A DNA stretch of 64,000 nt from Chloroflexota bacterium (GTDB lineage: Bacteria; Chloroflexota; Ktedonobacteria; Ktedonobacterales; JADMIN01), in NCBI GenBank assembly GCA_021323855.1, contig JAJPKE010000035.1:62001-126000 (forward strand), in the 5' to 3' direction. Of this stretch, positions 42,631-50,605 are shown in pieces (position 1 is the stretch's first letter; every line of letters begins with the position of its first letter). The position numbers and the translations under genes are program-made. Below the pieces are notes generated by a model, which had not been told where the DNA came from, ran no database searches, and saw only the letters and a program-made list of their open reading frames with translations.

Positions 42631-44055
42631 ATGTCCATGGACATCAACCAGCTTACCCAGCCGCTTATCATCCCTCGCGCGTCGCCACAATTGGTGGCCG
42701 CCAATCATATCCTTGCTCTCTCTTCCACAGAGCTTCAAGCGTTGATCCATCGCGAGGTTGAAGAGAATCCGGCGATGGAGGTGGAAGAAGTGGCCGTGTG
42801 TCCGCAGTGTTCGCGTCCGCTACAAAATGGCGTTTGCCTGCACTGTTCGCACTCGTCCAAACAGGAGACGCGGCATACATCCGGCGACGATTTCAGCGAT
42901 GACGGCGATATCTGGCGGCGACACACCAGCAGCGGCGACGATGAGTTCGACCCGACAACCCGTGTTCCTGCGCAGATGAGCCTGGCGGAGCATCTCACCC
43001 TGTCGTTGCAGGCGCAATACACCGTGAAGGATGCGCCGATCATCGAATATCTCGTGGGAAACCTCGACGAAGACGGACGTTTGCACTGTAATGTAGAGGA
43101 GATGGTCAATCTCTTCGAGGTGGATGAACACCGCATCAAACGTATGATTCGCTCATTGCAGAGCATGGAGCCGGTCGGCGTCGGCGCACGCGATCTGCGC
43201 GAGTGCCTGCTGATCCAGTTGCGCTATCTAGAGTCGCAGGGCGTTCACCAGCCGTTTGCCCGCGAGGTTATCAGTCGTTTTCTGCCGCAACTCAGCGAAC
43301 ACAAATATGGGCATATCGCCCTGGCGCTGGGTACGACAACCGAAACCATCCATGAGGTGAGCGAATTCATCAGGCGCAACCTCAACCCGTTCCCGGCGCG
43401 TGGCTACCTGGGAACGAATCTGACGGGCGGCGGCGAATCTACCAGCCCGATTGTGCCGGATGTCATCATCAGCAAGCGCGAATTGCCGGACGGCACGGTG
43501 CAATATGATGTCGAGGTCGTGGAGTCCAAACGCTTCTTCCTGAACATCAATCCGGCCTATGCCCAGCTCTATGCCGACGCAAACAAGAGCCAGATGCTCC
43601 TCAGCGAGGACGAGCGCAAGCATATCCATCAGTATGTCGCACGGGCCAAGCTCTTCATCTCCAACATTGACCAGCGCCGCAAAACGCTGACCAAGATTAC
43701 CCGCCATCTCATCGAGTTGCAGCGCGATTTCCTCGACAACGGCATCCGCGCGCTGGTCCCGCTGACGCGCGCACGAGTCGCGGCGGACCTGGGCATGCAC
43801 GAATCCACCGTGAGCCGCGCCACCGCCGCGAAATATTGCATGCTGCCCAACGGCGAGGTGATTCCCTTCAGCAATTTCTTCGTCGCCAACCTGGGTGTCA
43901 AAGATATCATCAAGGGGTTGATTGACAAAGAGCAACGACCGCTGACCGATCAGGATTTAGCGGGCATCCTGTCCTCGCACGGCATTCCGGTCGCCAGGCG
44001 CACCGTGGCGAAGTATCGTGAGCAGTTGGGGATTCTCCCCTCAACACTTCGCTAG
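42631..44055 (+). CDS. rpoN: RNA polymerase sigma-54 factor with inserted zinc ribbon
   Basis: 474-residue sigma-54. The activator-interacting domain (about 8-50) is QPLIIPRASPQLVAANHILALSS and then TELQALIHREVEENPAME. The core-binding domain (about 115-310) has SLAEHLTLSLQAQY, EYLVGNLDEDGRL and MEPVGVGARDLRECLLIQL. The DNA-binding domain has HESTVSRATAAKYCMLPNGEV and the RpoN box ARRTVAKYREQLGIL near 456. Between domains, where others have an acidic region II, lies CPQCSRPLQNGVCLHC (57-72), a clear four-Cys zinc ribbon, followed by a Ser/Asp-rich stretch. It needs AAA+ enhancer-binding activators, none of which are in the window. Start at 42631 after GAGAGG; ATG two codons later is possible. 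Confidence 0.94.
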   Translation: MSMDINQLTQPLIIPRASPQLVAANHILALSSTELQALIHREVEENPAMEVEEVAVCPQCSRPLQNGVCLHCSHSSKQETRHTSGDDFSDDGDIWRRHTSSGDDEFDPTTRVPAQMSLAEHLTLSLQAQYTVKDAPIIEYLVGNLDEDGRLHCNVEEMVNLFEVDEHRIKRMIRSLQSMEPVGVGARDLRECLLIQLRYLESQGVHQPFAREVISRFLPQLSEHKYGHIALALGTTTETIHEVSEFIRRNLNPFPARGYLGTNLTGGGESTSPIVPDVIISKRELPDGTVQYDVEVVESKRFFLNINPAYAQLYADANKSQMLLSEDERKHIHQYVARAKLFISNIDQRRKTLTKITRHLIELQRDFLDNGIRALVPLTRARVAADLGMHESTVSRATAAKYCMLPNGEVIPFSNFFVANLGVKDIIKGLIDKEQRPLTDQDLAGILSSHGIPVARRTVAKYREQLGILPSTLR

Positions 44056-48548: not shown

Positions 48549-48578
48549 TTGACTTTTCCTCCCAATAAAACGTATATT
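48549..48578 (+). promoter_or_regulatory. Probable promoter of the speD leader
   Basis: TTGACT (48549-48554), 18-base spacer, TATATT (48573-48578), in a short AT-rich zone. It would start a transcript near 48586, about 365 bases before the SpeD-fusion start codon. Confidence 0.55.
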
Positions 48579-48600
48579 CTTCAGGCTGCGCGCAAATCAA

Positions 48601-48682
48601 TGACGCTGATTGACACTCATTGACACTCATTGACGCGCAGCAGATAACGACAAGATCAACACAAGATCAACATAAGATCAAC
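48601..48682 (+). repeat. Two blocks of short tandem repeats in the speD leader
   Basis: Block one (48601-48640) is four 10-base units: tgacgctgat, tgacactcat twice, and tgacgcgcag. Block two (48650-48682) is three 11-base units: acaagatcaac twice, then ataagatcaac. Both lie just downstream of the probable promoter and thus in the transcribed leader. Confidence 0.9.
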
Positions 48683-48813
48683 AATCGCAGGCACGCTACG
48701 TCGAACCGCCTCCTCGAACCGTCCGCCGGACGCTTCGCGGCTGTTTCCATCCACTTGTCGCAGGGAAGACAAGCCGTTTGGGTAGGGAGTTCGATTGCAG
48801 AGAAAGGGACTCT

Positions 48814-48918
48814 ATGAGTACCGACAGCAGTTCCCGTGCGATACACTATGCGCGGGGCAATCTGGTTGGAACCTATCTCAGTTGGTACATCGCCTGTTTC
48901 CAGAGCGGAAACAGCTAG
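48814..48918 (+). CDS. 34-residue upstream ORF in the speD leader
   Basis: A short ORF with its own ribosome binding site (GAAAGGG, seven bases before the ATG). It ends with TAG at 48916-48918, 31 bases before the SpeD-fusion GTG and in a different frame. The peptide is Ser-rich at the start and ends with GTYLSWYIACFQSGNS. Its stop codon falls next to a hairpin, the layout of an attenuator leader peptide. The reading frame and ribosome binding site are seen; a regulatory role is inferred, by analogy with upstream ORFs that control AdoMet decarboxylase in other organisms. Confidence 0.5.
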   Translation: MSTDSSSRAIHYARGNLVGTYLSWYIACFQSGNS

Positions 48919-48932
48919 CGGGCGAACCCCGC
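48894..48932 (+). promoter_or_regulatory. Two hairpins before the SpeD-fusion start
   Basis: Hairpin one has an eight-base-pair stem (48894-48901 with 48907-48914) and a five-base loop and overlaps the end of the upstream ORF. Hairpin two has a five-base-pair GC stem (48918-48922 with 48928-48932). The AGGAG ribosome binding site follows at 48939-48943. Confidence 0.5.
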
Positions 48933-48949
48933 ATAAGTAGGAGTGTGAC

Positions 48950-50605
48950 GTGTTCGGACCCCACCTGATTATTGACGGCTCTCGTTGTGACACCCGGAAA
49001 CTTGCCGACCGCGTACTCGTCGAGCAAGTGATGAATGATTACCCCGCCGCCATCGGCATGACCAAAATCGGCGGCCCCTATATGTTCGAGTATCAGGCTC
49101 CTGATCCGGCGTACTCTGGCGTCTCCGGCATCGTCGTGATCGCCGAAAGCCATATCGCCATCCATACCTTCCCGGAACTCGACTATTTCACGATGGACAT
49201 CTTCTCGTGCAAGAACTTCGACCACGAGCTGGCCATCGAATACATCAAAAAGGCGTTTGATGTCAAAGAGATGGACCGCATGCTGGTGCAGCGCGGCCTC
49301 TCGTTCCGTGGACCACATCACGGCAGCCTCGGCGCGACGGATGAATTGATCGCCGCCGCCAATGCCCGCCTCGAAGCCGGCATTATCAGCAAAGAAACGG
49401 CTATCCCAGGCGAGGTGTATGGCGCTGGTAAAGACATAGCGGACGAGCGCGACGCAGCCATCGCGCGCATCGAGCAGCGCACGCAGACAGGCGAAACGAC
49501 CGGGGCAAGCGCGAACGGTGCGAATGGCGGCAAGATGCTCTGGCCACAGTATGGTGTGACGCCGGATTACGGCACCTATGGCGCTGCGGCTGGCGAAACC
49601 GCTGATTGTGAGCCATGTGCGCGCGGCGGAGCCACCGTTATGCCGCTTACCCATACAGGCGCCGCGCCGCTAGCCGCTGATGGTCGGGCGCTGCCCGCCA
49701 GTGAGCCTGCACAGGTCAACCCAACGGCTTCGATCAGCGGGCTGCTGGATAAGCTGGGCTACGCTGGTGGGCACGCGCGCAGCCTGGGGCGCGGCGTCGC
49801 CATCTGGGAACGGCTGGCGCGCGATAGCCAGACGACGATTGCGCTGGCGCTCTCTACACCCGTCATTGCGGATGGCCTGCGCGAGATGCTGGTCTACGCC
49901 GCAGAACACCGCTATGTAGATACGGTGGTTGCCAGCGCCGATGACCTCTTTGCCGACCTCTACGAATCGCTGGGCTACGCGCACTTCGCCGGTAGCCAGG
50001 ATGAGATGATAGCCACTGAGGAAGGGCATCAGGCGGCGCTGGCGTTCTTTATGGAATTTCTGAACACCGTCGAGCCAGGAACTTGCACCAGCAGCAATGA
50101 CCTGTGGCGGCTGCTCGGCGCGTATCTGCCTGCGCATGCCCCGCGCAAGGGATTGCTCCAGGCGGCGGCGACCGCTGATGTTGCGCTCTTCACGCCTGAC
50201 CTCAACACTAGCGTCTTTGGCGGCGCATTGTTGACGGCGCGCTCGCGCGGGCTGGCGCTCGATTCTGCCAACGATGTCATCGCGCTGGCGCGTCTGCTCG
50301 GCAGAGCGCCACGGCTGGGCATCATCCGTGCGGGCGCAGGTCTGGCGGATGCGCTGGTCGGGCAAGCGCGCGATGTCGCGGCGGCACTTGGCATCGTAGC
50401 GCCAACACTCTCCGGCAGCGTCTCGCTCAACAGTGCGCGGGCGCTGGCACAGGATGATCGCGGCGAGCATCATGTCGCCATCGCCGCTGGCGCAGACCTC
50501 GTGTTGCCGCTGGCGCTGACGGCGCTGGCGCAGCGTCTCCCCGGTGGACGGCGGCGCACGGCTGGCGAGACGCGCAGCCGTGAGGCAACGCCTGCGCTGG
50601 TATAA
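48950..50605 (+). CDS. speD: S-adenosylmethionine decarboxylase fused to a deoxyhypusine-synthase-like domain
   Basis: 551-residue fusion. Residues 1-130 are a prokaryotic pyruvoyl AdoMet decarboxylase: SGVSGIVVIAESHIAIHTFPE with the self-cleavage site E66-S67 and H72, and MDIFSCKNF with C87. Residues about 130-245 are a low-complexity linker. From about 246 the protein aligns by eye with deoxyhypusine synthase: TIALALSTPVIADGLREMLVY matches the TxxLGxTSNLxSSGxRE region, VDTVVASADDLFADLYE matches VDVLVTTAGGxEEDLIK, and VALFTPDLNTSVFGG matches PVFxPALTDGSLGD. The catalytic-lysine region (GGGxxKHH) reads RAGAGLADAL, with no Lys, and the TAGG NAD-binding loop is also lost. The GTG at 48950 follows AGTAGGAG. 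SpeD makes decarboxylated AdoMet for spermidine synthesis, though some SpeD relatives decarboxylate arginine or ornithine. No spermidine synthase is nearby. Confidence 0.85.
   Translation: MFGPHLIIDGSRCDTRKLADRVLVEQVMNDYPAAIGMTKIGGPYMFEYQAPDPAYSGVSGIVVIAESHIAIHTFPELDYFTMDIFSCKNFDHELAIEYIKKAFDVKEMDRMLVQRGLSFRGPHHGSLGATDELIAAANARLEAGIISKETAIPGEVYGAGKDIADERDAAIARIEQRTQTGETTGASANGANGGKMLWPQYGVTPDYGTYGAAAGETADCEPCARGGATVMPLTHTGAAPLAADGRALPASEPAQVNPTASISGLLDKLGYAGGHARSLGRGVAIWERLARDSQTTIALALSTPVIADGLREMLVYAAEHRYVDTVVASADDLFADLYESLGYAHFAGSQDEMIATEEGHQAALAFFMEFLNTVEPGTCTSSNDLWRLLGAYLPAHAPRKGLLQAAATADVALFTPDLNTSVFGGALLTARSRGLALDSANDVIALARLLGRAPRLGIIRAGAGLADALVGQARDVAAALGIVAPTLSGSVSLNSARALAQDDRGEHHVAIAAGADLVLPLALTALAQRLPGGRRRTAGETRSREATPALV

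Follow-up and report, generated by a model that had tools for sequence, protein, structure and literature searches.

The leader of a speD-family gene in a 5.6-Mb draft Chloroflexota genome (G000) raises the question of whether, and by what means, a short upstream open reading frame (uORF) controls a bacterial polyamine decarboxylase gene. AdoMet decarboxylase is under uORF control in plants and animals, as exemplified by the mammalian MAGDIS peptide and the plant SAMDC uORF, and the end of the peptide is important in these eukaryotic systems. The window analysed here, a stretch of 64,000 nucleotides from this genome, had initially been annotated as carrying a structured leader with a uORF that might act as a polyamine-responsive attenuator of an AdoMet decarboxylase gene. 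The promoter proposed in that annotation was recovered with a counterpart in the leaders of relatives, and the proposed leader length of ~365 nt holds when counted from the expected transcript start (about 48585) to the GTG codon of the main gene (Table 1). The product of this gene matched PF02675 (SpeD) and PF01916 (deoxyhypusine synthase [DHS]-like) in Pfam, and NCBIfam also supported a SpeD fusion. As relatives we used genomes of one order, the Ktedonobacterales, most of which are metagenome-assembled drafts. A search for the SpeD domain in these genomes yielded 15 full-length fusion loci in three families, f1 (the family of the window), f3 and f4; a sixteenth fusion locus (G001) was cut by a contig end and lies outside the full-length count. 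Close to the speD locus, at 42631-44055, a sigma-54 factor with RpoN domains is encoded.

Table 1. Coordinates of the leader and gene features in the window
Feature	Position	Strand	Basis or remark
Sigma-70-type promoter TTGACT / 18 nt / TATATT	48549..48578	+	equivalent -35/-10 boxes in relatives' leaders
Two tandem-repeat blocks	48597-48636 and 48642-48683	+	10-bp and 11-bp periods; lineage-specific
Three-way-junction RNA	48697..48797	+	RNAalifold, 8 genomes; single-sequence folds
P1	48699-48706/48789-48797	+	junction helix
P1b CCUCCU/GGGUAGG	48709-48714/48780-48786	+	junction helix
P2	48715-48737	+	junction stem
P3	48738-48776	+	junction stem
uORF Shine-Dalgarno-like GAAAGGG	48802..48808	+	purine-rich stretch, same place, 14 genomes
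uORF MSTDSSSRAIHYARGNLVGTYLSWYIACFQSGNS*, conserved leader peptide	48814..48918	+	TAG at 48916-48918, then CG
Post-stop hairpin GCGGG/CCCGC	48918-48922 / 48928-48932	+	at uORF stop, upstream of speD ribosome-binding site
speD Shine-Dalgarno AGGAG	48939..48943	+	sequence; AGGAG or AAGGA in relatives
Main gene, SpeD-family pyruvoyl decarboxylase + divergent deoxyhypusine-synthase-like domain	48950..50605	+	551 aa, GTG start

Conservation of the uORF and its stop codon

The annotated 34-codon ORF with its own ribosome-binding site is present in the window, and a uORF was located directly upstream of the SpeD fusion in 14 of the 15 full-length loci. The encoded peptides have a length of 25-35 residues, start with MST and end in YLSW[YF]I[AG]C[FM][HQ][TS]G[END]S, followed by TAG and then CG. 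Specifically, the window peptide ends in YLSWYIACFHTGES; the relatives have similar ends, with TAG-CG next in all of them, and one genome (G008) has FMRW where the others have YLSW. The N-terminal part is variable in length and sequence, and the end beside the stop codon is fixed. For a genome-wide scan we used a degenerate nucleotide pattern covering the final 12 codons of the uORF, for which ~2 chance matches were expected by a rough estimate. This pattern matched 12 times in 84,980 species genomes, every time at a leader upstream of the fusion, and these 12 matches together with the uORFs of the window and of G013 make up the total of 14. The pattern had no match in viral contigs, and no uORF was found in the sister family f2, in which SpeD is unfused.

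In the last 14 uORF codons, pN/pS, based on counts pooled over related pairs, was 0.14 in frame as opposed to 2.5 and 1.5 in the shifted frames. The variable positions in these codons comprised 12 of the 14 third positions and only four first and five second positions, the counts across the 14 genomes being phylogenetically non-independent. Judged by this codon pattern, the uORF is under selection at the protein level. In addition, the first eight bases of the uORF, ATGAGTAC (48814-48821), were identical in all 14 genomes, a hint that the uORF start is also constrained as RNA; the Ser codon in this octamer is always AGT, while the other Ser codons of the uORF are variable. The uORF stop is TAG in 14 of 14 genomes, as compared to TAA, TAG and TGA in six, five and four cases, respectively, for the stop codons of the SpeD fusion genes themselves. 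Furthermore, the two bases after the uORF stop are always CG, even where the predicted hairpin leaves these bases unused. The initial annotation was to be abandoned should the ORF and hairpins lack conservation in close relatives; upon inspection, the ORF and several of the hairpins turned out to be conserved.

With respect to arrest peptides, we found the uORF to be short, to have its own ribosome-binding site, to adjoin the gene that would be regulated and to have its conservation concentrated at the C-terminus. When an arrest peptide stalls, it is the C-terminal residues that lie close to the peptidyl-transferase centre, and the variable N-terminus combined with a fixed end corresponds to the layout of arrest peptides.

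Leader RNA structure and the speD start

As a whole, the leader was predicted to fold more stably than its shuffled versions (z = -2.5; none of 100 shuffles was equally stable). The hairpin CTTGTC/GACAAG proposed initially is real, though a few bases away from where it had been placed (48754-48759 / 48768-48773), and it forms part of stem P3 of a three-way junction upstream of the uORF. In a covariance analysis of eight f1 genomes with RNAalifold, as had been suggested for the leader, eight pairs with compensatory change were detected in the P1/P1b/P2/P3 structure. In this structure, 92% of the cells were paired versus 37-47% when the partners were slid by one to three columns, a control that leans toward the junction because that alignment had also served to derive the structure. 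Single-sequence minimum-energy folds contained P1 in all eight genomes and the entire junction in six, with G005 and G007 differing inside. Among the eight junction sequences, CCGCCUCC (with U next in seven of eight) and UAGGGAG were invariant. The CCUCCU strand of P1b, which hardly varies among the genomes, is a perfect anti-Shine-Dalgarno sequence and could pair with the AGGAG of speD. When used as a covariance model, the junction gave one match per genome in the window's family, exclusively at the speD leader. No recognisable copy was found in family f3; a closing helix is present at the junction site in four f3 members and is unclear in two others and in G013 (f4). Matches of the model outside the window's family were weak, rested largely on the ATGAGTAC flank, and were rejected. 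Rfam covariance models gave no match to the leader at E up to 5, and none at gathering scores in the window and the relatives. The three-way-junction RNA is possibly a new motif.

On the downstream side, the annotated 5-bp GC hairpin before the main ribosome-binding site is present, with a counterpart in all 14 genomes that lies on the uORF stop or immediately behind it. The stems of these hairpins differ in sequence and start either right at the stop or no more than a few bases away. With a DNA alignment too gappy for pair counting, they were judged by single-sequence folds with shuffles, and the 25-nt windows after the stop folded better than their shuffles, with a Stouffer z of -6.7 that, coming from 14 related genomes, is not a strict probability. 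The 8-bp hairpin CTGTTTCC/GGAAACAG (48894-48901/48907-48914), which had been noted over the end of the ORF, does exist in the window, but its conservation is restricted to close relatives sharing the QSG[DN]S codons; it is absent from the HTGES group, the constraint on the codons is enough to account for it, and we rejected it as a part of the device. The same applies to the two tandem-repeat blocks, which exist as annotated but are missing from the leader of every relative; their periods of 10 and 11 bp amount to about one helical turn.

Between the uORF and the start of speD lie 30-37 nt, with a single exception of 50 nt in G008, where the gap holds an extra self-folding hairpin of 20 nt, so that the effective distance is again ~30 nt. 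A readthrough product joining the uORF to speD was dismissed, as the frame in the window runs into TAA at the sixth codon past TAG. In all 14 uORF-bearing loci speD starts with GTG or TTG, as opposed to ATG in both fusion loci that lack the uORF (G007 and G001); the unfused f2 speD genes, also without a uORF, appear to start with ATG as well. In G007 a variant of the upstream RNA is retained and the peptide is lost, and in G001 neither was seen. This pattern, which reflects few independent events, fits a speD start that would be kept weak because the uORF supplies or controls the ribosomes. In the leader of G007, an unrelated ORF of ~51 codons, ending in TGGS-TGA, stands in the place of the uORF. 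Another short ORF with a strong ribosome-binding site (MKRLPLVI..ELDAFLVQRRL) was observed ~230-290 nt upstream of speD in loci L017-L022; members of a single genus in the sister family conserve this ORF, which precedes the apparent speD promoter.

The promoter-to-gene interval held no intrinsic terminator made up of a GC stem and a T-run on the + strand, and attenuation by transcription termination is thus unsupported. The anatomy of the leader rather fits translational control.

Substrate of the SpeD domain

The SpeD domain showed the family match and the catalytic Ser, His and Cys residues; the initial label of AdoMet decarboxylase is nevertheless doubtful. In the uORF-bearing genomes tested, no canonical speE was found, the best TIGR00417 score being 56 bits as compared to 218 bits in a genome of the sister family (G018), where speE adjoins a second, AdoMetDC-like speD. 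The uORF-bearing genomes do contain genes of the arginase/agmatinase (SpeB) family, and a full-length SpeY (deoxyhypusine/homospermidine synthase) that carries the VSWGKI lysine motif is present in most of them; a separate SpeY was not found in G005, G010 and G023, which are more fragmentary. The Orn/Arg decarboxylase family PF02784 was not found in G000, G007, G012, G017 and G019, and a member is present in G003, G004 and G013. It has been reported that SpeD homologs clustered with speB and speY in genomes without speE are arginine decarboxylases and are linked with homospermidine synthesis (PMC10407285), and that a DHS homolog couples two agmatines en route to homospermidine (PMC10981699). 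Taken together, the lack of a canonical speE, the presence of speB and mostly SpeY, and this precedent point to arginine decarboxylase (SpeDA) as a possible identity of the SpeD domain, as favoured by genome context. The ligand to be expected for the leader would depend on the substrate of this domain.

In the fused DHS-like domain, all 12 fusions compared lacked a Lys at the position aligned with VSWGKI, where the separate SpeY has it. This domain is, moreover, poorly conserved and decays further in family f3. The missing catalytic lysine and the poor conservation indicate that it is probably not an active SpeY, but a pseudo-enzyme domain kept on the decarboxylase.

A proposed leader peptide gating speD translation

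The variable N-terminus, the fixed end, stop codon and stop context, and the weak start at a set distance form the pattern of a termination-arrest leader peptide. We consider it somewhat more probable than its opposite that the uORF encodes a cis-acting leader peptide on which a metabolite of the polyamine pathway stalls termination at UAG and so gates how many ribosomes reinitiate at the weak start of speD. The genomes themselves show that the peptide is conserved and under protein-level selection, and they show the invariant stop context, the hairpin, the RNA structure, the link to the SpeD gene and the start-codon pattern; that ribosomes stall or reinitiate, which ligand is involved and that control is by repression are inferences. 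The conserved peptide end, inside the ribosome tunnel, would slow or block release by RF1 at UAG-CG when a metabolite, most plausibly a polyamine or a precursor thereof, is abundant and stabilises the nascent chain. Since speD, with its GTG or TTG start ~30 nt downstream, would depend on ribosomes reinitiating from the uORF, stalling would cut this flow and reduce SpeD synthesis, probably as polyamine feedback. The stalled ribosome would open the post-stop hairpin and come to lie against the speD ribosome-binding site, and the ~30-nt gap would be compatible with its either hindering or helping speD initiation. The three-way junction, predicted to fold just upstream of the uORF ribosome-binding site, probably sets the frequency of uORF translation. 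The core of the initial idea, a regulatory uORF in a structured polyamine-gene leader, is supported by the conserved ORF, the hairpins and the protein-level selection, without support for attenuation by transcription termination and with the AdoMet decarboxylase in doubt.

Conceivably, the uORF could serve plain translational coupling, merely delivering ribosomes or unfolding the RNA at the weak speD start without sensing anything. The short gap, the GTG and TTG starts, the ATG where the uORF is missing and the structure around both ribosome-binding sites would all agree with this, but the peptide-level conservation and the invariant TAG-CG would be left unexplained, and we regard coupling as unlikely. 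Distinctly unlikely, in our judgement, is a small protein acting in trans, for instance by binding the SpeD fusion enzyme in a manner comparable to antizyme or prozyme. A low pN/pS is equally expected of such a protein, as is its constant position beside the same enzyme gene; however, conservation is crowded into the final residues before the stop, in contrast to a variable N-terminal part, and invariance extends to the stop codon and the CG behind it, which lie outside the coding part. It is these invariant non-coding bases and the end-clustered conservation that disfavour both coupling and a trans-acting protein.

Alternatively, the three-way junction itself could be the sensor, a riboswitch for which the uORF is merely the expression platform. 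Compensatory pairs, an invariant core and the potential of CCUCCU to pair with the AGGAG of speD would speak for it, yet the motif is confined to the window's family, the sister families keep the peptide without it, the junction variant persists in G007 despite the loss of the peptide, and Rfam gave no match, which makes this reading very improbable. A combination of two stacked sensors, in which the junction RNA, as a possible riboswitch, would control the uORF and the nascent peptide would sense a metabolite at UAG, appears rather doubtful to us. That the uORF is a functionless chance ORF, short ORFs being common in long leaders, is opposed by its conservation, codon pattern and exclusive location; this extremely remote option was ruled out on the ground of conservation.

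The arrest-peptide reading places the uORF next to known systems. SpeFL, an arrest peptide that senses ornithine and is encoded before speF in gamma-proteobacteria, inhibits the action of RF1, and TnaC that of RF2 (PMC8429421). Like SpeFL, the uORF encodes a short leader peptide before a bacterial polyamine decarboxylase gene with, as a candidate here, control of RF1-dependent release; it differs in sequence and phylum, and it precedes a pyruvoyl SpeD/DHS-like fusion instead of the PLP-dependent ornithine decarboxylase SpeF. With TnaC it would share nascent-chain control at the stop codon, and both peptides have a conserved Trp some dozen residues from their end, whereas TnaC belongs to the tryptophanase operon and involves UGA, RF2 and tryptophan as the ligand. 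The spermidine riboswitch, a SAM-I variant with a four-stem fold that acts on transcription termination (PMC10853860), is likewise a structured RNA upstream of polyamine genes, but the speD leader had no SAM-family match. The eukaryotic AdoMetDC uORFs resemble the bacterial one as peptide-coding uORFs before a gene of the SpeD superfamily; we claim no homology; the bacterial uORF uses initiation at a ribosome-binding site, and the SpeD domain encoded downstream may be a different decarboxylase. In the open-access literature, no account of a bacterial speD preceded by a uORF came to light. Devices of this kind are known; the peptide family, the gene it precedes and the RNA motif appear to be new.

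To our knowledge, few metabolite-sensing arrest peptides of bacteria have been described, mostly from well-studied species. The present uORF is a strongly conserved candidate, tied to polyamine synthesis, from a branch of the Chloroflexota known largely from metagenomes. If confirmed, it would provide a new peptide for comparison with SpeFL and MAGDIS, and it would imply that bacteria and eukaryotes have converged in how they control genes of the SpeD superfamily. Should the reading with two stacked sensors be true, the leader would be a switch that arose in bacteria independently of the eukaryotic AdoMetDC uORF and parallels it.
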